The position numbers and the translations under genes are program-made. The notes below the pieces were generated by a model that saw only the letters and a list, made by a program, of their open reading frames with translations, had not been told where the DNA came from and searched no databases. A DNA stretch of 46,825 nt from Acidobacteriota bacterium (GTDB lineage Bacteria; Acidobacteriota; Blastocatellia; Chloracidobacteriales; JADJPF01): the NCBI GenBank assembly GCA_016213785.1, contig JACQZQ010000014.1, positions 1-46,825 of the forward strand, written 5' to 3'. Within the stretch, counting starts at the first letter, position 1. Each line of letters starts with the position of its first letter. Shown one piece after another: positions 5,939-36,234 of this stretch.

Positions 5939-8017
5939 ATGTTAAGAGTAATCATTTTTGCACCACTAATTGGCGCTATCATATTAGGATTATTTGGTAA
6001 AAAAATGTCAGAGCGTCTAATTGCTGCAATTGCTTGTTCCTCAATAGCGGTTTCTGCCATAGCAGCGTTTGCAGCCTTTCTAGAGCTAGTTGGCAAATCA
6101 CCAGATCCCGATGGAATACGTAGAGTAACCGATACGCTTTTTACTTGGATTAGTGTAGGAACATTTAGAGCCGACTTTGCTTTTATGATGGATCCTCTTT
6201 CAGGCGTCATGATTTTATTTGTTACCGGTGTAGGGCTACTTATTCATATATTTGCTACTGCTTATATGAGCGGTGAAGATAGTTATTATAGATTCTTTAC
6301 TTACTTGAATCTATTTATGTTTATGATGATAGTCCTAGTCTTAGGCGATAACTTCCTTATGATGTTTGTTGGTTGGGAAGGTGTAGGTCTTTGTTCTTAC
6401 TTACTAATTGGTTATTACTTCTTAAGAGATTATGCTGGAGATGCTGCTAAGAAAGCTTTTATTGTTAATCGTATTGGTGATTTTGGATTTGCTTTAGGCG
6501 TAATGCTAATTTTCTATCACTTTAGTAGCATTAGTTTTATTGATAAACCAGGAATAGCTAGTGTTTTTACTCAAGCAGCTAATAAACCTGTAGAAGCTCT
6601 TTCAACAAGTGCTTTATTTGCTGGAGGTTTAACAACAATAGGTATTCTTTTGTTTATTGGGGCTTGTGGTAAAAGTGCTCAAATCCCTTTATTTGTTTGG
6701 CTTCCAGATGCAATGGCTGGCCCAACTCCAGTATCTGCATTAATTCACGCTGCTACAATGGTTACAGCAGGCGTTTATATGATTGTTCGCTCAAATGTGC
6801 TCTTTAGTAAAGCTCCAATGGCGCTTACTATTGTTGCAATTGTTGGTGCTTTAACAGCCTTTTTTGCCGCTACAATTGGCATTTCGCAGTGGAATATCAA
6901 AAAAGTTTTGGCCTATTCAACAGTTTCTCAGCTTGGCTATATGTTTTTAGCTTGTGGAGCAGGTGCTTTTGCTCCTGCATTCTTCCACGTAGTTACTCAC
7001 GCTTTCTTTAAGGCTTTATTATTTCTTGGCTCAGGTAGCGTTATACACGCAATGCACCATGATGAAGATATGCGCAATATGGGTGGGCTAAGCAAATATC
7101 TAAAAATCACCTTTTTTACAATGGGAGCAGGCACTCTAGCTATAGCAGGATTCCCCCTTTTATCAGGTTTCTTTAGTAAAGATGAAATTCTTTGGAAAGT
7201 AAGAAGTTCTACAGTCTTACCAGGTAGCTTAGGCACAGTTCTTTGGCTTTTAGGAATGGTAACTGCTGCAATTACAGCAATTTATATGACTCGTATGATG
7301 GTTATAACTTTTTTTGGTGAAGAACGCTTTAGAAATAAAAAACACGACGATCATGCACACGGGCATGGTGCTGATAATCAGGGGCATGATGACCATCATG
7401 GTGCTGATAATCATGGACATGGTGCAACCCCACATGAATCACCATTAGCAATGACCTTACCTTTAATTATCCTAGCTATCCTTTCAATTGTTGGAGGTTT
7501 TGTAGGTGTTCCTGAAGGTTTAGCTGAGAAATTTGTCCCTCATTCATTACAGGGTATTACTCATAGTTTTTATGCTTTTTTAGCTCCAGTAATAACTAAT
7601 CCTGTTATACCTGGAAATGGTGGTGAAGCTATAGCCGCAGACCATAGTGCAGAACTAGTTTCTACTATTCTTTCTTCTATTGTTGCTTTAGTTGCTATTG
7701 GTATTGGTTACGCAGTATTTAAGGGTAAACCAATGCTTCAAATGCCAAGCGTATTAGAGAATAAATACTATATTGATGAGATATATGACGCAGTAATAGT
7801 TAATCCATTAAAGTTTATTTCTACCTATGGACTTTGGAAATTTTTTGATGTGGTAGTTATAGATGGAACTATTAATGGGCTTGCAAAACTTGTAACTCTT
7901 ATAGGTGTAGGTTTTCGTCAATTGCAGCCAGGAATAACTCGTTTATATGCAGCCTTTATTTTTGGAGGCGCAATATTTGCTATAGGCTGGTTCTTCTTAA
8001 CAATTATTAGGCGATAG
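5939..8017 (+). CDS. nuoL: NADH-quinone oxidoreductase subunit L
   Basis: Largest antiporter-like proton-pumping subunit of complex I (ND5 homologue), 692 residues. Family blocks include VGWEGVGLCSYLLIGYYF near residue 145, LPDAMAGPTPVSALIHAATM near 260, and YSTVSQLGYMFLACG near 330. The C-terminal part has the long lateral-helix region expected of NuoL. A His/Asp-rich loop at about residues 466-500 contains two imperfect copies of a GADN..GH unit. His-rich loops at this point occur in other NuoL proteins, but this one is long. The gene is preceded by a GGAG-like site and followed by nuoM after 28 bp. Confidence 0.97.
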   Translation: MLRVIIFAPLIGAIILGLFGKKMSERLIAAIACSSIAVSAIAAFAAFLELVGKSPDPDGIRRVTDTLFTWISVGTFRADFAFMMDPLSGVMILFVTGVGLLIHIFATAYMSGEDSYYRFFTYLNLFMFMMIVLVLGDNFLMMFVGWEGVGLCSYLLIGYYFLRDYAGDAAKKAFIVNRIGDFGFALGVMLIFYHFSSISFIDKPGIASVFTQAANKPVEALSTSALFAGGLTTIGILLFIGACGKSAQIPLFVWLPDAMAGPTPVSALIHAATMVTAGVYMIVRSNVLFSKAPMALTIVAIVGALTAFFAATIGISQWNIKKVLAYSTVSQLGYMFLACGAGAFAPAFFHVVTHAFFKALLFLGSGSVIHAMHHDEDMRNMGGLSKYLKITFFTMGAGTLAIAGFPLLSGFFSKDEILWKVRSSTVLPGSLGTVLWLLGMVTAAITAIYMTRMMVITFFGEERFRNKKHDDHAHGHGADNQGHDDHHGADNHGHGATPHESPLAMTLPLIILAILSIVGGFVGVPEGLAEKFVPHSLQGITHSFYAFLAPVITNPVIPGNGGEAIAADHSAELVSTILSSIVALVAIGIGYAVFKGKPMLQMPSVLENKYYIDEIYDAVIVNPLKFISTYGLWKFFDVVVIDGTINGLAKLVTLIGVGFRQLQPGITRLYAAFIFGGAIFAIGWFFLTIIRR

Positions 8018-12128: not shown

Positions 12129-12491
12129 TTATCCTAAAAATAGCTTAATCCATTTCATAGTTATTGGTGCTAAAAATATTGCTACAGTAACAGAAAGAAA
12201 TAGCCAAATAAGATTAAATATAATACTACCTATAGACTTCATCTCTAAAATAGATAGCCCAAAAACAGTGCCAGAAAAAACAATTCCTATGATAAAGAAA
12301 AATACAGTAAGAAACAAAGTCATAGCTACTTTTATTCCTAGCGTTATTTTTTCTAGCTCAGGTGCCAAGACTCTTTCAGGAGTTTTTCCTATAGGATTGC
12401 CATCCATATCTATTAAGTTAGAATTACAATGATGACAATGATGGGCATCATCTTGTAGTAATTTTTTGCAAGAAGGACACTTTTTCATCAT
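12129..12491 (-). CDS. Zinc-ribbon membrane protein
   Basis: A 120-residue protein that begins with a zinc ribbon (CPSCKKLL...HCHHC, residues 5-22), followed by a linker and two transmembrane helices at about residues 53-75 and 88-110. Such proteins are common and of unknown role. Two consecutive ATG codons make the start 12491 or 12488; the Shine-Dalgarno is weak. It is first of three minus-strand genes. The 520-bp region upstream (12492-13011) is very AT-rich and shows no coding potential. Confidence 0.6.
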   Translation of the reverse strand: MMKKCPSCKKLLQDDAHHCHHCNSNLIDMDGNPIGKTPERVLAPELEKITLGIKVAMTLFLTVFFFIIGIVFSGTVFGLSILEMKSIGSIIFNLIWLFLSVTVAIFLAPITMKWIKLFLG

Positions 12492-13011
12492 GATTTAACG
12501 CCCTATTAATTTAGGAATAAGAGACAATTTAATCAATGGTTTTTGTTCTTAGATGGATTTATTGTTTAATTTTGTTTAGCTATTTTAGACTATAGTGCAT
12601 TAAAGGGCTAGTATTAATATCATTTTCTGTTTTAATAAAAACTTTGTGTTACCTAAGTTTATAGTGTAACAATTAGTGACATAAACTGATACTACAAATT
12701 TATAATTTATTGATTATATAGTAAGTTTAAGAAAGAATGTTACTAAAATATACATGGCTTTAGAATATTCTTATTTCTTTTATTAAATATTAAAAACTTT
12801 TCAAAAGTAACAGAAAGTAAAAGAAAGAAAAGGAAAGAAGGCTAAAATTAATAGGCTAAATTTTTAAATCAAGGGTTTTAAAAAAGGATTATTATAGACT
12901 TTTTAAGTTAACTTATTGATTATCAAAGAAATAGGATTTAGATAAAACTTAAGCCAGGTTTTTAAAAAGATTTAAGAATAGGGTTAACAACAAGGAATTT
13001 AATTAAGCTAT

Positions 13012-13149
13012 GGCATAGAGATTGCTCTAAGGAAAATTAGCCAGGACCTCCTCAAGTTTTTCCCACCGTTTTGAGGTTGGTACAGGTGATAAGCGCATCC
13101 TACTAATGCCTGAACTAAGTATGAGACTTAAGTTTCGGGCTATTTTTTT
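13012..13149 (+). ncRNA. Candidate structured RNA with its own terminator
   Basis: No protein is readable here, yet the segment is less AT-rich than its surroundings and folds well. The strand TCCTACTAATGCC (13098-13110) can pair with three upstream pieces: GGC (13012-13014), ATTAG (13036-13040) and AGGA (13043-13046). Between them are small hairpins AGAG/CTCT (13017-13028) and CCTCAA/TTGAGG (13050-13076). The 3' end is an intrinsic terminator with seven consecutive T. Nothing on the plus strand follows for 4 kb, so this is more like a stand-alone RNA than a leader. It does not match tmRNA, SRP RNA or RNase P signatures that I know. The 5' end is uncertain. Confidence 0.4.
13108..13149 (+). 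terminator. Terminator of the candidate RNA
   Basis: Stem GCCTGAACTAAGT (13108-13120) with ACTTAAGTTTCGGGC (13126-13140), two bulged bases, loop ATGAG, then TATTTTTTT. The T-run is only on the plus strand. The preceding plus-strand region has no gene, so the terminator implies an unannotated transcript. Its first three bases could also pair in the alternative fold of the candidate RNA. Confidence 0.8.
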
Positions 13150-13170
13150 GCCTAAAAGAAAAATTAAGGA

Positions 13171-14049
13171 TTATTTATCTTCTAAGAAAGTTTCTAAGAG
13201 TTTATCTAAATCTGCATCTTGGATTTCTTCAGTATCTTGGGTTTTTTCATTATTTTGTTGAGCTTTAGGTTTTTTTGATTTTTGATTTTTAGCAGGTTTT
13301 TTCTTTATCGGCTCAACATCATCCATTGTTAATGATGTACGCTTTTTCTTTTCAATAGTAATAGGGTTTATAAAAACTAAGGGAGAGTTTGATAAAGGGT
13401 CTTTAGATGCACTTTCAATAAATAAGCTACTATCAGAATTACTCTTAAGGTAGCCTTCTTTATTTTCTAAATTCGTTGGTTCTTGTTCTTTACTATCAGC
13501 TAGTTTAATTAGTTTAGAAAAAGCAATTCTTAATTCTTCCGTGTTTCTTAGATTAGCACTAGAAATAATTAAAAGTTCTTTTTGAAAGCTTTCAGGTTTA
13601 AATGTTACATCACAAGAATTTCTAAAAAATCTTTGAACACAGTTTCCCAAACTATCTTTACAACCTACAGTAATTACCATAGTACTACCTTTAGCAAATG
13701 CAGTGATTTTTGTAGGCTCAAGGTCTGTTAAAAAGACTTCTTCACGCGAAGCAGTACAAGAGGAATTTATTTGATATTGCTTATATAAAGTTAATTTACC
13801 TCTACTATTTATACTAATGCGATTAACTTCTGTATATTTGCTACTATTTTGAGCCGGATAGCTAGCAAGAGTGTTATTAATAATTTGTAACTGTTCTTCT
13901 AAAAGACTGTTTTGATTAGGATTAGGGTTTTGAGCGTTAATAGTAGATAGATTAAGCAAAAATATTGAGAATAGTAAGCTTATTAATAACGGTAAATTTT
14001 TTTTTCCTTGGCTAACTACTAAGCTACTAAAACTATTAAAATTACTCAT
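13171..14049 (-). CDS. Exported protein of unknown function
   Basis: Not recognised. A 292-residue protein with an N-terminal signal sequence (hydrophobic core near residues 19-36, ending NAQN). The middle has four cysteines (near 79, 129, 137 and 145) that could pair in the periplasm. The last 60 residues are very rich in Lys, Gln and acidic residues and look disordered. An AAGGA precedes the start. It lies 16 bp downstream of the large kinase gene on the same strand, so it is probably co-transcribed and may be its target or partner; that is inference. Confidence 0.5.
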   Translation of the reverse strand: MSNFNSFSSLVVSQGKKNLPLLISLLFSIFLLNLSTINAQNPNPNQNSLLEEQLQIINNTLASYPAQNSSKYTEVNRISINSRGKLTLYKQYQINSSCTASREEVFLTDLEPTKITAFAKGSTMVITVGCKDSLGNCVQRFFRNSCDVTFKPESFQKELLIISSANLRNTEELRIAFSKLIKLADSKEQEPTNLENKEGYLKSNSDSSLFIESASKDPLSNSPLVFINPITIEKKKRTSLTMDDVEPIKKKPAKNQKSKKPKAQQNNEKTQDTEEIQDADLDKLLETFLEDK

Positions 14050-14065
14050 AATGACATCCTTAATA

Positions 14066-16576
14066 TTACTTTAGGGGTTTAGTATGAATATCTGAGGTTG
14101 ATAGAATTTTTTCTGCATTATTTGAATTTCTAGTTGTAATAACAGTTTTATTATCAGTTATATCCGTAAATGAGTCAGGGCTATTAGAACGGTAAATGGA
14201 TAGAGCTATTGTTAGGGCAGTAAAATCACCTCGGAGTTTTTCAAAAATATCACGTAAGGGTTGCGTTCCATCAAATAATTCAACTACTTCTAATTCTTTT
14301 TCTTCAGCAATTATTATTTCAGGTAACTCTAGTTTTAATGAAGTCGAAAGGCTAGGAAAATTACTTATAATAGCTTTTTCCTCATCATAGAAATTTAATA
14401 TATGTGTTATTAGTTGATAAGAAGTAACCTCTACTACTTTTTCAGAACAAGGTATATCAGGTCTAAAATGCATCGTTCCATCACTCCAAAACATTACTCT
14501 GTAAAGTACTCCTAAGGGAGCAAGTTTATTTAGTTTAGCATTTACTATAATTCCGCCAACTAAAAAAATATTAGCTGTTTCAATACCTGATTTAATAGTT
14601 AAATTTCCTGTTTTACCAGATTTTTCTAGTTCTTGCAGCAGAGTAAGAAAAGAAACTTTATTTAGATTTTCTACTATTTGAGTATAGTGTTTATTTTGTA
14701 ATAAAAGTCTTTTTATACGTGTAGCTAAGTTATCTATATCTATAGGTTTAATCCAATAATCATCTACTCCTTCATTAAAAGCGGCATCAATTTCAACATC
14801 TTTTTTATTACTGCTAAGGCAAATATATGTAGTGTCTTTCATTAGGGGTATTTTTTGAAGCTGCCAATATAGATCACTTCCACTAGAATCAGGAAGTTCC
14901 ATATCAAAAATTATCATAGTAGGCCATAGACTCTTAGATAGGAGTAAGGCTTGTTCTGCTTTAGTAAGAATTCTAACCTGACAGCCTAATTTGCAAATAG
15001 CTTGAGCTATTTGAGCGCTAGTTTCTTGATTTGAGTCAACAATAAAAACAACTTGAGAGCAAAGATCTGTTTTTACTTGAGGGCGGCGCCGTCTCCAACT
15101 ACGGCGAGAATCATCACTAGATACAGGCCAAAGATCAGAAATCAAATGAAAGAGTTGTTGGCGATAATCAATTTCACCTTCCGTAGGCAGGATTTCTGCT
15201 ACTTTGCAGGCTTCTGTAATAAGTTCTTTAGATAGGTAATATTTTGTTAACCAGTAACATTGCTTATAAGCTAACTCAAATAGTTCTTGTTGACAAAAAA
15301 TATCTGCTAGTTTTGTTGCAATGGAAACTCGACTTTCTATGTCTACAATACTATAGATTTTCCAATAAATACTCACTGCTTTATCTAAGTTGCCAAATTG
15401 GTAAGAGAGGTCTGCTGCATTAAAAAATGCTTCTATTGCTTCTAAAACATAGCCTGTTTGTTGATAGATTTCAGCTATTTTTTCATACTGAGAAAAATCT
15501 TTAGGGTTTTTAATTATTGCTTTTTGAGCTTTATTTAAATCATAAGTATTTGATTGATCATTACTTTTAGAACTAAAATTTCTTTGGACAGCAAGAAGTT
15601 CAGCTTTAGCTGTAATAGGAGTGTATTTATTAATATTACGGCGTGCAAAATCTATAAGTATTGAAGATAGCTCATTTGCCATTTCTTGGACTGATTTAGG
15701 GCGATTACAAGGCTTTTTATCCAAAGCGCTTATAATTAAGTTTTCTAGTTTGGCAGGCATTTCATTAATAAGTTTACTTGGAGGGGTAGGAGGGTTTTTA
15801 ATATGGGCTTCAATAACTTCTAACGGATCATCACCTTGACAGGGAAGAGAACCGGTAAACATTTCATATAAAAGCACTCCTAGGCTATATATATCAGAAC
15901 GTTCATCAATATCTTCACCTAAACAAACTTCTGGAGACATATAACTAAAAGTACCTACTAACATATTAGGTGAAGTTAGTCTTCGTTGTCTGCCTTCTTC
16001 AGAACGCATTTTTACTAAACCAAAATCAACGACTTTCATTATGCTATTATTTAAAAGACCTTCAAACATAATATTTTCTGGTTTAATATCTCTATGCATT
16101 ACCCCAAAAGCATGTGCTGTAGAAAGAGCTTCACAAATTTGACGGGCTATTTCAACCCCAAATTCTAAACCACAAATAGGCCATCGCTTCATAAAATGCT
16201 TAAGATGAAAGCCTTTAATAAATTCCATTACTAAAAAAGCATAGCCGTTATTTGAAAACCCAAAATCATGTATTGAAACAATATTAGGGTGTTTTAATTT
16301 AGCAATAGCTAGGGCTTCACGTTCAAAACGCTCTCTAGCATTATTATTAGCAGTAAAATTAGGGCTAAGCACTTTAATCGCTACACTTCGTTGTAGGATT
16401 ATTTGATTAGCCTCATAAACTGTTCCCATTCCTCCTTCCCCTAAGCGTCTGTAAAATATATATTTATCATCTAATACTAGATCACCTTTAAGAGTAAACT
16501 CTAAAGTGTTACCATCAATGGGGCAAAGAGTAACATTATCACCATAGCATTTATTACAGGTCAGACATTCTTTCAT
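14066..16576 (-). CDS. Ser/Thr protein kinase with TPR, receiver and PATAN (DUF4388) domains
   Basis: Cytoplasmic multidomain signalling protein, 836 residues from ATG 16576 (a TTG codon lies immediately upstream). Order: a small Cys-rich knuckle (CLTCNKCYGDNVTLC, residues 4-18); a PknB-type kinase at about 40-310 with GEGGMGTVYEA, the AIKVL lysine, HRDIKPEN, DFGLV and SPE; TPR-like helices at about 355-470; a response-regulator receiver at about 510-630 with the phospho-acceptor Asp in IIFDMELPD and KPID; a PATAN/DUF4388 domain at about 645-720; and a helical C-terminus. No membrane segment. The kinase looks active. A receiver inside a Ser/Thr kinase links one- and two-component signalling. 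No clear Shine-Dalgarno is present; a large hairpin lies 8 bases upstream of the ATG. Confidence 0.85.
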   Translation of the reverse strand: MKECLTCNKCYGDNVTLCPIDGNTLEFTLKGDLVLDDKYIFYRRLGEGGMGTVYEANQIILQRSVAIKVLSPNFTANNNARERFEREALAIAKLKHPNIVSIHDFGFSNNGYAFLVMEFIKGFHLKHFMKRWPICGLEFGVEIARQICEALSTAHAFGVMHRDIKPENIMFEGLLNNSIMKVVDFGLVKMRSEEGRQRRLTSPNMLVGTFSYMSPEVCLGEDIDERSDIYSLGVLLYEMFTGSLPCQGDDPLEVIEAHIKNPPTPPSKLINEMPAKLENLIISALDKKPCNRPKSVQEMANELSSILIDFARRNINKYTPITAKAELLAVQRNFSSKSNDQSNTYDLNKAQKAIIKNPKDFSQYEKIAEIYQQTGYVLEAIEAFFNAADLSYQFGNLDKAVSIYWKIYSIVDIESRVSIATKLADIFCQQELFELAYKQCYWLTKYYLSKELITEACKVAEILPTEGEIDYRQQLFHLISDLWPVSSDDSRRSWRRRRPQVKTDLCSQVVFIVDSNQETSAQIAQAICKLGCQVRILTKAEQALLLSKSLWPTMIIFDMELPDSSGSDLYWQLQKIPLMKDTTYICLSSNKKDVEIDAAFNEGVDDYWIKPIDIDNLATRIKRLLLQNKHYTQIVENLNKVSFLTLLQELEKSGKTGNLTIKSGIETANIFLVGGIIVNAKLNKLAPLGVLYRVMFWSDGTMHFRPDIPCSEKVVEVTSYQLITHILNFYDEEKAIISNFPSLSTSLKLELPEIIIAEEKELEVVELFDGTQPLRDIFEKLRGDFTALTIALSIYRSNSPDSFTDITDNKTVITTRNSNNAEKILSTSDIHTKPLK

Positions 16577-16583
16577 CAATTTT

Positions 16584-17137: not shown

Positions 17138-19090
17138 ATGCTTATTGCAGATCGTTTTGAAATAGAAAAAGAGCTTGGCCGTGGTGGAATAGGTGTTGTT
17201 TATAAAGCTATTGATAGAAAAGGAAATAACCGACCTGTAGTAGTTAAAATACTGATGGAACAAAAAGATGATGGAACAAGAGATTGGGTAGAAAGACATT
17301 TCTTAAAAGAAGCCAAGGCCTTAAAACTTATTAATCATCCTGGAGTTGTTCAGTTAATAGATGTAGGAAAAACTTCTGATGATAAAGCCTTTTTTGCTAT
17401 GGAGTATGTAAACGGTTATGATTTGCGTTCGCAAATAGACCCTAAAAAAGGCTTAATAGGTGATTATGAACGAGTAGCTAGAATTATGAATGAGCTTTGT
17501 GATGCTATTAGCGCAGCACATGAAAAGGGAATTTATCATCGTGACTTAAAACCTGAAAATGTTATGTTACAAAAACCTAAAACATTTGCTGATGATGAAC
17601 AGGTTAAAGTAATTGATTTTGGTATTGCTACAGTAAAAGAGTCTTTTGATGAGAAAACAAAAACTACTCAACTACTTGCAGGAAGTATTCACTATATGGC
17701 ACCAGAACAGTTAGAAAATCGCCCTTCTGCAAGTAGTGATATTTATTCTCTCGGAGCCATTGCTTATGAGCTAGTTACAGGGCGACCTCCATTTATGCCA
17801 GAAGCACAAAGTTATGTTGTTGCAATAGTTCAGTTAATGCAAATGCAAAAAGATGGCGTAAGAATAAAACCAAAAGATTTACGTCCAAGTTTACCAGAAC
17901 AAGCACAGGTAATAATTCTTAAGGCACTTGCCTTTAACCCTGAGGATCGCTATAAGGTGGCAAGAAATTTTGGCAATGATTTAGCAAAAGCTTTAACAAA
18001 TGATTGGGATGATGAAGATAGAGCTACTACATTTATAAAAGAAACAAATGAAATAAGAAAACAACAAACCTATATTACTGAAAAATCTTTTGAAAAAGAA
18101 AAGACATTAATAGAAATCCCAGTAACTAAAGTAATAGATGAGGCTAAAGTATCTAATATTAGCTCAAATGACACCAAAACCTTTTCCTCTTCCTCCGAAA
18201 CTCTTGAGCCTATTGTTAGAAAAAATATTACCGAAGTTCAATTTTCTGGAGAAGATACAAAAAACACTCTTATAAAGCATACAAGTACTGAAAATACTGA
18301 AAATACTGAAAATACTGAAAATACTAATTCCAACGCTAACAAAATTGAGAAACAATTAGAAATTTTATCAGATAAAGTAAAAGAAAATACTAAAGGGCAA
18401 AACTCAGCAATAAATAAGCTATTTATATTAGGAATAGTAATTATTAGTATTTTAACTTTTTTAGCTTCTTATAAAGTCTTTTTTAATCAAGAAAATAAAG
18501 CAATTATTACAAATAATAATACCCCTCTCATAAATACTAGCACTAAAGAGAAAACTCTATCATATTGGATGCTTTGGTCTCCAAGTGATAAAAAAACACA
18601 ACCGCCAATTAGGTTAACAGATGAGATCAATGAGGATGTGTTTTTTAAGGAAAATGATGTAATAGAATTTTTTATAAATAGCCCTGGAGATGGTTATTTA
18701 TACATAATCCATGAAGGAGAAGAATTAGGTGAAAAAGGTAATTATACTATTCTTTTTCCTTCTCCAAATAACTCAAATACAAAAGTAGCACTTAGTGAAC
18801 TAATTTCTAAGAAAGTAATAACTTCTGGTAGAGATAAAGTGGAAAAAGTTTGGATGATTTGGACAAGTAAGCAGATTTTGGGGCTAGAACAAGCTTTTAT
18901 TCAGTGGAAAGGAAAAGATGATTTAAGTGAAATAAAGGACGAGAAACAGGAACTAGCCTTAAAGGAATTATTAAATAAAAGTCCTATGCTAGAAGGTATT
19001 ACTATAGAAAAAGATGAAGTAAATAAAAAGATGAAAGTTATAAGTAGTAAAGATCCATTGATCTATTATTTTATTTTAAGAAGAAAATAG
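17138..19090 (+). CDS. Membrane Ser/Thr protein kinase with extracytoplasmic DUF4384 domain
   Basis: A 650-residue PknB-type kinase. The kinase domain at residues 7-275 has GRGGIGVVYKA, VVVKI, HRDLKPEN, DFGIA and APEQ, so it should be active. Residues 290-425 are a low-complexity linker with a TEN repeat. One transmembrane helix at about 427-449 (LFILGIVIISILTF) is followed by a DUF4384 domain (YWMLWSPSDKK, FFINSPGDGYLYIIHEG, ILFPSPNN), which should lie outside the cytoplasm. AAGGA nine bases upstream supports the start. It is divergent from the receiver-containing kinase and is closed by a hairpin. A second DUF4384 protein, without kinase, lies at 39495. The ligand of DUF4384 is unknown to me. 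Confidence 0.85.
   Translation: MLIADRFEIEKELGRGGIGVVYKAIDRKGNNRPVVVKILMEQKDDGTRDWVERHFLKEAKALKLINHPGVVQLIDVGKTSDDKAFFAMEYVNGYDLRSQIDPKKGLIGDYERVARIMNELCDAISAAHEKGIYHRDLKPENVMLQKPKTFADDEQVKVIDFGIATVKESFDEKTKTTQLLAGSIHYMAPEQLENRPSASSDIYSLGAIAYELVTGRPPFMPEAQSYVVAIVQLMQMQKDGVRIKPKDLRPSLPEQAQVIILKALAFNPEDRYKVARNFGNDLAKALTNDWDDEDRATTFIKETNEIRKQQTYITEKSFEKEKTLIEIPVTKVIDEAKVSNISSNDTKTFSSSSETLEPIVRKNITEVQFSGEDTKNTLIKHTSTENTENTENTENTNSNANKIEKQLEILSDKVKENTKGQNSAINKLFILGIVIISILTFLASYKVFFNQENKAIITNNNTPLINTSTKEKTLSYWMLWSPSDKKTQPPIRLTDEINEDVFFKENDVIEFFINSPGDGYLYIIHEGEELGEKGNYTILFPSPNNSNTKVALSELISKKVITSGRDKVEKVWMIWTSKQILGLEQAFIQWKGKDDLSEIKDEKQELALKELLNKSPMLEGITIEKDEVNKKMKVISSKDPLIYYFILRRK
18287..18325 (+). 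repeat. 9-bp tandem repeat coding for TEN units
   Basis: Four exact copies of ACTGAAAAT plus a further ACT, in frame inside the kinase linker, coding for Thr-Glu-Asn units. Copy number may vary between strains and change linker length without shifting the frame. Confidence 0.9.
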
Positions 19091-33897: not shown

Positions 33898-34239
33898 ATG
33901 TCATTCGAAGCGCTAGGAATGATTGAAACTAAAGGTTTTGTTGGTGCAGTTGAAGCAGCAGATGCAATGGTAAAAGCTGCTAATGTTGTATTAATTGGAA
34001 AAGAATATATTGGAGCTGGATATGTTACAGTATTTGTTCGTGGCGATGTTGGTGCAGTAAAAGCTGCAACCGATGCTGGTGCAGCAGCAGCACGCCGCGT
34101 AGGTGAGTTAATAAGCGTTCATGTCATTCCTCGTCCACATTCAGAATTAGAAAAAGTCTTGGCGGATAATGGAATGAGCTTGGAAAAAGCATTAGCAAGT
34201 GGTGAGAAAAAAGCACTTCCTCCTTCTAAAGAAAAATAA
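33898..34239 (+). CDS. Bacterial microcompartment shell protein (BMC-H)
   Basis: Forms hexagonal tiles of protein-shelled organelles. 113 residues. The BMC fold signature is complete: [20 protein letters not shown], an [13 protein letters not shown] strand, [18 protein letters not shown], and [13 protein letters not shown]. The C-terminal extension of about 25 residues (to PPSKEK) is longer than in the simplest PduA/EutM types. GAGGAG about 8 bases upstream is strong. It is followed after 39 bp by an aldehyde dehydrogenase. No pentameric vertex protein (BMC-P) or second shell gene is in the window. Confidence 0.96.
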
Positions 34240-34278
34240 GCAATTAATAAACTTTGGTTTCTTGTTTAGGGAGCAATA

Positions 34279-36234
34279 ATGCCAATCGACAAAGATTTAA
34301 CCTCTGTACAGCAAGCACGAGATTTAGTTGCTGCTGCTCATTCTGCACAAAAGATTTATGCTACTTTTAGTCAGGAGCGTATTGATTCTATTGTTGAAGC
34401 AGCGGCTTTAGCTGCTTTAACAGAGAAAGATCGTTTGGGGCAAATAGCTGTAACAGAAACAGGCTATGGTGTTGCAAAAGATAAAGCAGAAAAAAATCGT
34501 TTTGCCGCAGAAGATGTACATAGCTTTTTTCGTAACTTAAAGACTGTTGGGGTTATTAATGAAACAGATAATTTAATAGAAATTGCTGATCCTCGCGGTG
34601 TAGTCGCAGCAATTATTCCTTCTACTAACCCTACTTCTACAGCTATTTTTAAGATTTTAATTTCTCTTAAATCCCGTAATGGGGTTGTTCTTAGCCCTCA
34701 TCCATCAGCAGCACAATGTATTAATGAAACTACCCAAATTATGCGTGCTGCTGCTGAAAAAACTGGCGCTCCTGCTGGTTTAATAGGCTGTTTAGCTATT
34801 TCTACTCTTCAAGGAACAGAAGAGCTAATGAAGCATAAGCTTACCTCAGTCATACTAGCTACAGGCGGTATCGGGCTAGTAAAAGCTGCCTATAGTTCTG
34901 GTAAGCCCGCTTTTGGTGTAGGGCCTGGAAATGTCCCTGTTTTAGTCGAACGCTCTAGTGAAGTAAGTAAAGCTGTAGCAGATATTTTGGCTGGCAAAAC
35001 CTTTGATTATGGAACAATCTGTGCCTCTGAACAGGCAATAGTTGTAGAAAATATTATAGCCAGTAAAGTAAAAGCAGAGTTTATTTCTCAAGGTGCACAT
35101 TTTTGCAACCAAGATGAAATTGCTAAGCTAGAAAAGCTTGTAGTGCTGCCTACTAGAGGACTTAACCCTAAAATAGTAGGAAAATCTCCTCAAGTCTTAG
35201 CAGAAATGGCAGGATTTACTGTTTCTTCAGATATAAGAGTTCTAATCGTCGAGTTAAAAGGCGTAGGGCGTGATTACCCTCTTTCTATGGAAAAACTCTC
35301 TCCTATACTAGCTTATTATACTGTTGAGACTTGGCAAGAAGGCAGTAATCTTTGTCAAGAAATCCTTCGCTATGGTGGCATGGGTCATACTATTGGTATT
35401 CATTCACAAAATAGAGATGTTATCCGCCAGTTTGGTATAGCACAACCAGCCTCACGCATTATTGTTAATTCTCCTACTACACATGGTGCAATAGGTTTAA
35501 CTACAAATCTTCCTCCTAGTATGACATTAGGCTGTGGTAGTTGGGGAGGCAATGTTACCTCAGATAATATTTCACCTATTCATTTAATGGATATTAAGAG
35601 GGTAGCTTTTGAAACTCGTTCTATTACTAGAAAAAATTCTTCTCCAGAAGTTGCAAAGTCTGTGATTGTAAATACAGATTTGGCTAAACGTATTGCTCTT
35701 GAAGTCATTGAACAAACCCACTTACGTAACTTAATGGTTCAATCTGCTGTAAACTCTGCTAAAATAACTCCTAATCCAAGCTTAGCAAATCCAACAAGTT
35801 CAACAAACCCAACCGAACCTGTACCTCTTAGTGATGCTTTGATAGCTCAATTAGTAGATAAATTTTTAGTAGAACGTAAAAAAACTAAGCCAAATAGTAT
35901 TGCTGTAGCAAAAGTTTTGGAAAATATTAAAACTAATAAGCCTGAGCAGGTCAAAGAGCCGCAAGCTAAAGAAGAGAAAACTAAAGATGTCCCAGCAAGT
36001 GCTAAGGAAAATCTTAAGCAAGACGTATCTTCAAGCCCATCAGCAAAAGTAAAAGATTTTACAGATAAAAAGACTCCAGATAGTCCAGCCCCTCGCCCAC
36101 AAGACTTTGTTTGTGAAGATGATGTAAAACAAGCTTTGCGAGAAAACAAAAAAATTTATATTAGTAAAAAAACGATCCTTACCCCTTCTGCTAGGGATTT
36201 AGGAGAGGCTAACGAAATTTTTGCCCAAGTTTAG
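34279..36234 (+). CDS. CoA-acylating-type aldehyde dehydrogenase with long C-terminal tail
   Basis: Residues 1-455 form an aldehyde dehydrogenase of the EutE/PduP/AdhE-N type, which turns aldehydes into acyl-CoA with NAD. It has IIPSTNPTS near 113, a GVGPGN loop near 214, and the catalytic C248 in [11 protein letters not shown]. Residues 456-651 are additional: a Pro/Ser/Thr stretch, a predicted amphipathic helix ([18 protein letters not shown], about 518-535), a Lys/Glu-rich linker, and a compact end ([20 protein letters not shown] then [10 protein letters not shown]). The helix resembles encapsulation peptides that target enzymes into microcompartments; the final motif recalls short segments in other microcompartment enzymes, from memory only. 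It directly follows the BMC-H gene. Cargo role is inferred. Confidence 0.88.

Follow-up and report, generated by a model that had tools for sequence, protein, structure and literature searches.

The intergenic element studied here lies in a window of 46,825 nucleotides (contig C109) of the AT-rich genome of a member of the Blastocatellia (Acidobacteriota; 6.4 Mb, 132 contigs) and is best read as a stand-alone small RNA (sRNA) which would be sigma-54-dependent and would act by base-pairing, a reading to which we give a probability of roughly two in three, its weakest step being the base-pairing. That the element represents a real, transcribed small RNA is very probable in its own right. Judged from its sequence, it would be an sRNA of a known kind, namely sigma-54-dependent and stand-alone, with no known sequence family. 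Its transcription, the dependence on sigma-54, the involvement of an activator and base-pairing in trans are what we infer; conservation, the terminator, the promoter match with its geometry, and the presence of RpoN and Hfq can be read from the sequences themselves. The features to which the text refers are as follows.

Up to 11109, plus strand: nuoN, which ends here and is the nearest upstream plus-strand gene
12129-12491, minus strand: gene for a zinc-ribbon membrane protein (120 aa)
12646-12812, no strand: cluster of TGTTAC/GTAACA half-sites (12647, 12666, 12738 and 12807), candidate activator sites
13010-13026, plus strand: sigma-54-type -24/-12 promoter ATGGCATAGAGATTGCT (GG at 13012-13013, GC at 13024-13025)
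13037-13149, plus strand: predicted sRNA of ~113 nt (predicted +1 to the last base of the T run), with homologues in the genomes nzgw73 and MAG-250
13040-13087, plus strand: predicted 5' hairpin (GCC/GGT, ACC/GGT and CCTCAAG/TTTTGAGG), the same helix being found in the window and MAG-250
13082-13102, plus strand: candidate seed, the invariant block ACAGGTGATAAGCGCATCCTA, which coincides in part with the mostly single-stranded linker (13088-13107)
13108-13149, plus strand: intrinsic terminator (stem 13108-13140, T7 13143-13149), identified by fold energy and paired changes
13171-14049, minus strand: gene of no known family
From 17138, plus strand: protein kinase gene, the nearest downstream plus-strand gene

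The element is flanked by the zinc-ribbon membrane protein gene on one side and by the gene of no known family on the other, both on the minus strand. No plausible plus-strand gene was found between the end of nuoN and position 17138, the intervening genes being on the minus strand; the element thus stands 1.9 kb from the closest plus-strand gene upstream and 4.0 kb from the closest one downstream. The GC content is 42-52% across 13010-13129 as against 15-30% in the AT-rich flank. The terminator hairpin, which is followed by TTTTTTT at 13143-13149, has a predicted energy of -12.7 kcal/mol (13100-13150; z -3.18), a value equalled by one in 200 shuffles. The first-pass annotation had described an intrinsic terminator, isolated from plus-strand genes and preceded by sequence less AT-rich than its flanks, as the end of an unannotated plus-strand RNA; each of these observations was borne out, and the proposed RNA is now backed by conservation, by paired changes in the terminator and by a promoter at the right distance. 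With regard to the wider neighbourhood, the gene of no known family adjoins a gene (14066-16579) encoding a Ser/Thr kinase fused to a response-regulator receiver and DUF4388, and both genes are retained in nzgw73, while at 33898-36234 of the window a BMC shell protein gene adjoins an aldehyde dehydrogenase gene in what is possibly a bacterial microcompartment operon.

Homologues of the element were detected by BLAST in two of the three family relatives compared, namely nzgw73, which belongs to the same genus as the window, and MAG-250, which belongs to another genus of the same family; the third family member, G003, lacks the RNA, though the zinc-ribbon gene and feoA occupy the corresponding place. 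The sole other BLAST match (in genome G069) spans only 24 bases past the terminator. The 21-base block ACAGGTGATAAGCGCATCCTA is identical in the window, nzgw73 and MAG-250, that is, in three genomes from two genera, and MAG-250 additionally shares the hairpin arms CCTCAAG/TTTGAGG. Between the window and nzgw73, 60 of the 62 positions across 13053-13114 are the same, as compared to an identity of ~57% in the flank (13150-13500) despite the shared genus. Retention of 60 of 62 bases is not what neutral drift would produce next to flanks with ~40% divergence, and on these grounds the element is under selection; conservation beyond drift in related genomes had been set as a check of the first-pass annotation and is indeed observed. 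A coding sequence was rejected as an explanation, as a loop indel relative to nzgw73 and MAG-250 shifts the frame and ACAGGTGATAAGCGCATCCTA is invariant even at third positions.

The distribution of the element is narrow. A pattern search permitting up to three mismatches across 162 genomes of the class returned exactly the window, nzgw73 and MAG-250, and a covariance model applied to 396 genomes of the phylum, and with laxer filters to 14 of the order, yielded no other convincing copy. Its remaining matches were discarded as chance, for example one inside a cysteine synthase gene (contig C70 of the window genome) and another antisense to a chemotaxis kinase gene. The exact core pattern, sought in 85,000 species, occurs only in nzgw73, MAG-250 and four chance matches without the hairpin, and is absent from the viral contigs, phages and plasmids searched. 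The covariance model likewise revealed no second convincing copy within a genome, the RNA being single copy. By these searches the element is without a sequence relative outside its family, and the homologue set consists of three sequences, one of which, that of nzgw73, is interrupted by an assembly gap where its promoter and 5' end would be.

The terminator is retained in all three genomes, with energies of -12.7 (window), -14.6 (nzgw73) and -21.3 kcal/mol (MAG-250) and z scores of -3.2, -4.6 and -5.4, respectively, and a T run follows the hairpin on the same strand in each. Its arms are GCCTGAAC and GTTTCGGGC in the window, GCCTGAAACAAC and GTTGTTCAGGC in nzgw73, and GCCTAAAACT and AGTTTTAGGC in MAG-250; the fourth pair is T-G in the window and T-A in both relatives, while the fifth is G-C in the window and nzgw73 and A-T in MAG-250. 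The distance from terminator to block is about constant across the three genomes, again on the same strand. The paired changes in the terminator and the 5' hairpin are suggestive of RNA, three sequences being too few for statistical proof. The hairpin at 13108-13140 was missed by a simple terminator scanner, probably owing to its bulges.

The published sigma-54 consensus reads TGGCACG-N4-TTGC(T/A), in which GG and GC are conserved (PMC7910581; also PMC4641369). The window site ATGGCATAGAGATTGCT, which was recognised after the fact, agrees with 10 of the 13 defined bases and the orthologous MAG-250 site CAGGCACGCTATTTGCT with 12 of the 13, corresponding to per-position chances of 6e-5 and 5e-7 under a first-order model of each sequence. 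A scan of the entire window returned eight sites as good as 10/13 where about five are expected; the window site is thus unremarkable alone, and its weight comes from its position and from its MAG-250 counterpart. Sigma-54 transcripts start 12-13 bases past the C of the -12 element, and the conserved RNA start TTAGCC lies 12 (window) or 13 (MAG-250) bases after this C. The interval of 13012-13149 given for the RNA by the first-pass annotation therefore requires correction at its 5' side, as position 13012 is the GG of the -24/-12 promoter and the first 25 bases are promoter rather than RNA. In nzgw73, ten N lie beside the RNA; what precedes them aligns with window sequence upstream of the promoter, so that this copy probably has its own promoter and 5' end within the gap. 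All 20 of the relatives examined for RpoN encode it.

Sigma-54 needs an enhancer-binding protein, and the region upstream of the promoter holds TGTTAC/GTAACA half-sites in excess: four within 546 bp in the window (0.19 expected), two in nzgw73 (0.17 expected) and three in MAG-250 (0.26 expected), the last including a perfect palindrome, TGTTACCATAGGTAACA, 188 bp upstream of the RNA. These half-sites may be bound by an enhancer-binding protein or may serve the divergent zinc-ribbon gene. Elsewhere in the genomes, TGTTACC-N3-GGTAACA has few matches, near the control rate. One such match, with a single mismatch, is situated in MAG-250 (C110:2397-2413) between two minus-strand ORFs which by eye resemble pilC and a pilS-type sensor kinase gene; this could point to a PilR-type activator, at a match rate that is near chance. 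Also upstream, the block TTAAAGGGCTAGTATTAATATCATTTT (window 12589-12630) is near-identical to nzgw73 and overlaps a sigma-70-like promoter directed towards the minus-strand zinc-ribbon gene.

The predicted fold of the RNA differs from that initially proposed. The first-pass annotation had drawn a multi-branched structure in which 13098-13110 pairs with three separate upstream pieces and which could compete with the terminator; the segment 12990-13152 is no more stable than its shuffled versions (z 0.02) and the pairs concerned are not kept in the relative, for which reasons neither the three-piece pairing nor the competition is supported. In the fold that recurs in MAG-250, a single long 5' hairpin is joined to the terminator by a single-stranded linker. 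Within the hairpin, the pair block ACC/GGT of the window corresponds to GCC/GGC in MAG-250, which constitutes one compensatory change (A-U to G-C), and the loop holds an invariant CCCACC (13062-13067); in the window, the 5' part (13037-13107) folds no better than shuffles (z -0.06). The linker GATAAGCGCAUCCUACUAAU (13088-13107) is predicted to be unpaired, and its GGTG could pair with CACC of the loop as a pseudoknot, both sides of which are invariant.

The sequence of events that we propose is as follows: sigma-54 RNA polymerase, activated by an enhancer-binding protein perhaps bound to the upstream TGTTAC sites, would start transcription near 13037 and would stop at the intrinsic terminator (13149), giving an RNA of ~113 nt. 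Its 5' hairpin, whose loop is C-rich, would be followed by an invariant linker left unpaired and then by the terminator hairpin and its U tail. This RNA would probably act in trans, together with Hfq or a similar protein, the linker (and perhaps also the CCCACC loop) pairing with mRNAs. sRNAs that base-pair in trans are usually built in this way, from a 5' hairpin, an unpaired linker and a terminator, and their seed ranks with the parts that are most conserved (PMC5568312). Hfq is encoded in all four genomes tested (the window genome, nzgw73, MAG-250 and G003). Base-pairing in trans is judged the most likely mode of action because of the sRNA-like layout, the conserved linker and the presence of Hfq. 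Searches for complements of the core and linker returned no target common to the genomes searched; the core-complement matches lie inside coding sequences, with one near a start codon, in nzgw73 only.

This target search bears on the foremost alternative, that of a stand-alone RNA which binds a protein, as a sponge or scaffold, rather than an mRNA, the invariant linker then being the protein site. The lack of a conserved mRNA complement agrees with such a role, as would the invariant linker combined with the possible CACC/GGTG pseudoknot; no repeated protein-binding motif is seen in the RNA, no Rfam model matches it, and the 6S RNA (RF00013) of this genome was located on contig C36 and not at the element. 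We regard protein binding as unlikely, if the best placed of the alternatives.

Somewhat less likely still is a cis-acting leader or riboswitch of feoAB, whose 5' part would sense a ligand (possibly iron) and control the terminator, feo having moved away in the genus of the window. This proposal derives from MAG-250, where feoA lies past the terminator and feoA-feoB follow the RNA in sense at a distance of ~190 nt, and where pairing is possible between the 5' strand TTAGCCAAAG and CTTGGCCTAA, a segment that overlaps the terminator's 5' arm; the loop-linker pseudoknot would also suit a leader. The pairing of the 5' strand with the terminator arm is, however, not kept in the window. It is only in MAG-250 that the RNA precedes feoAB in sense: in the window and nzgw73 the element is intergenic, ends in an intrinsic terminator and has no sense gene downstream, yet its block is identical, and feoA resides on other contigs of these two genomes, in each of which the RNA occurs once. 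In G003, feoA is present at the same place without the RNA. The RNA thus does not accompany feoAB from genome to genome, and inherited gene order is the best reading of the MAG-250 neighbourhood. Since feoA of G003 directly faces the zinc-ribbon gene (7643-7790, with no RNA between them), the arrangement nuoN/zinc-ribbon/feoAB was probably present in the ancestor of the family and then disrupted in the genus of the window.

A more speculative and improbable proposal is that the RNA represents a pseudoknotted ligand- or protein-binding class (loop CACC/linker GGTG, invariant ATAAGCGCATCCTA core) under sigma-54 control, whose members would serve as stand-alone sRNAs in one genus and attenuate feoAB in another. 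Least probable of all is that the element acts as DNA, as a regulator or recombination site to which the neighbouring terminator is unrelated. A DNA site could account for 21 identical bases, but the terminator arms change together as in RNA, the spacing and strand of block and terminator are maintained, the promoter is at the right distance and the element is single copy.

The preferred reading, that of a stand-alone, base-pairing sRNA under sigma-54, can be compared with RNAs described previously. A search of the Rfam 15 families returned none at the gathering threshold and chance matches only up to an E value of 10, in agreement with the first-pass annotation, which had recognised no known RNA class. 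Qrr of Vibrio, with its near-invariant seed block, and GlmY of Escherichia coli are sigma-54-dependent sRNAs; the element resembles them in its proposed mode of expression and differs in that no sequence similarity was detected with their Rfam models. CrcZ, CrcY and CrcX of Pseudomonas are stand-alone RNAs transcribed from RpoN promoters that are activated by an enhancer-binding protein (PMC8657755). The likeness is once more in the proposed expression mode, whereas the Crc RNAs sequester Hfq-Crc and the element is without such repeated A-rich motifs. Acido-1 and Acido-Lenti-1 (RF01686 and RF01687) are non-cis-regulatory RNA candidates of Acidobacteria (PMC2864571), whose Rfam models the element does not match, and a limited search of the literature found no characterised sigma-54-dependent small RNA in Acidobacteriota. 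Pxr of Myxococcus xanthus is a 108-nt intergenic RNA with a predicted sigma-54 promoter, stem-loops and a 5' part that is most conserved (PMC5568312). By description, the two are alike in size, in predicted promoter class and in adjoining a predicted NADH dehydrogenase gene; Pxr, however, stems from another phylum and also adjoins nla19, an enhancer-binding protein gene, a kind of gene that a search among the window genes did not return, and with the Rfam search empty the element is set beside Pxr by description and not filed as Pxr. Acidobacteriota are abundant in soil and hard to culture, and a compact RNA with a sigma-54 promoter offers a concrete, testable regulator in this phylum. If the reading is true, it would add a phylum to the circuit of sigma-54, enhancer-binding protein and sRNA that is known from Vibrio, Pseudomonas, Escherichia and Myxococcus.
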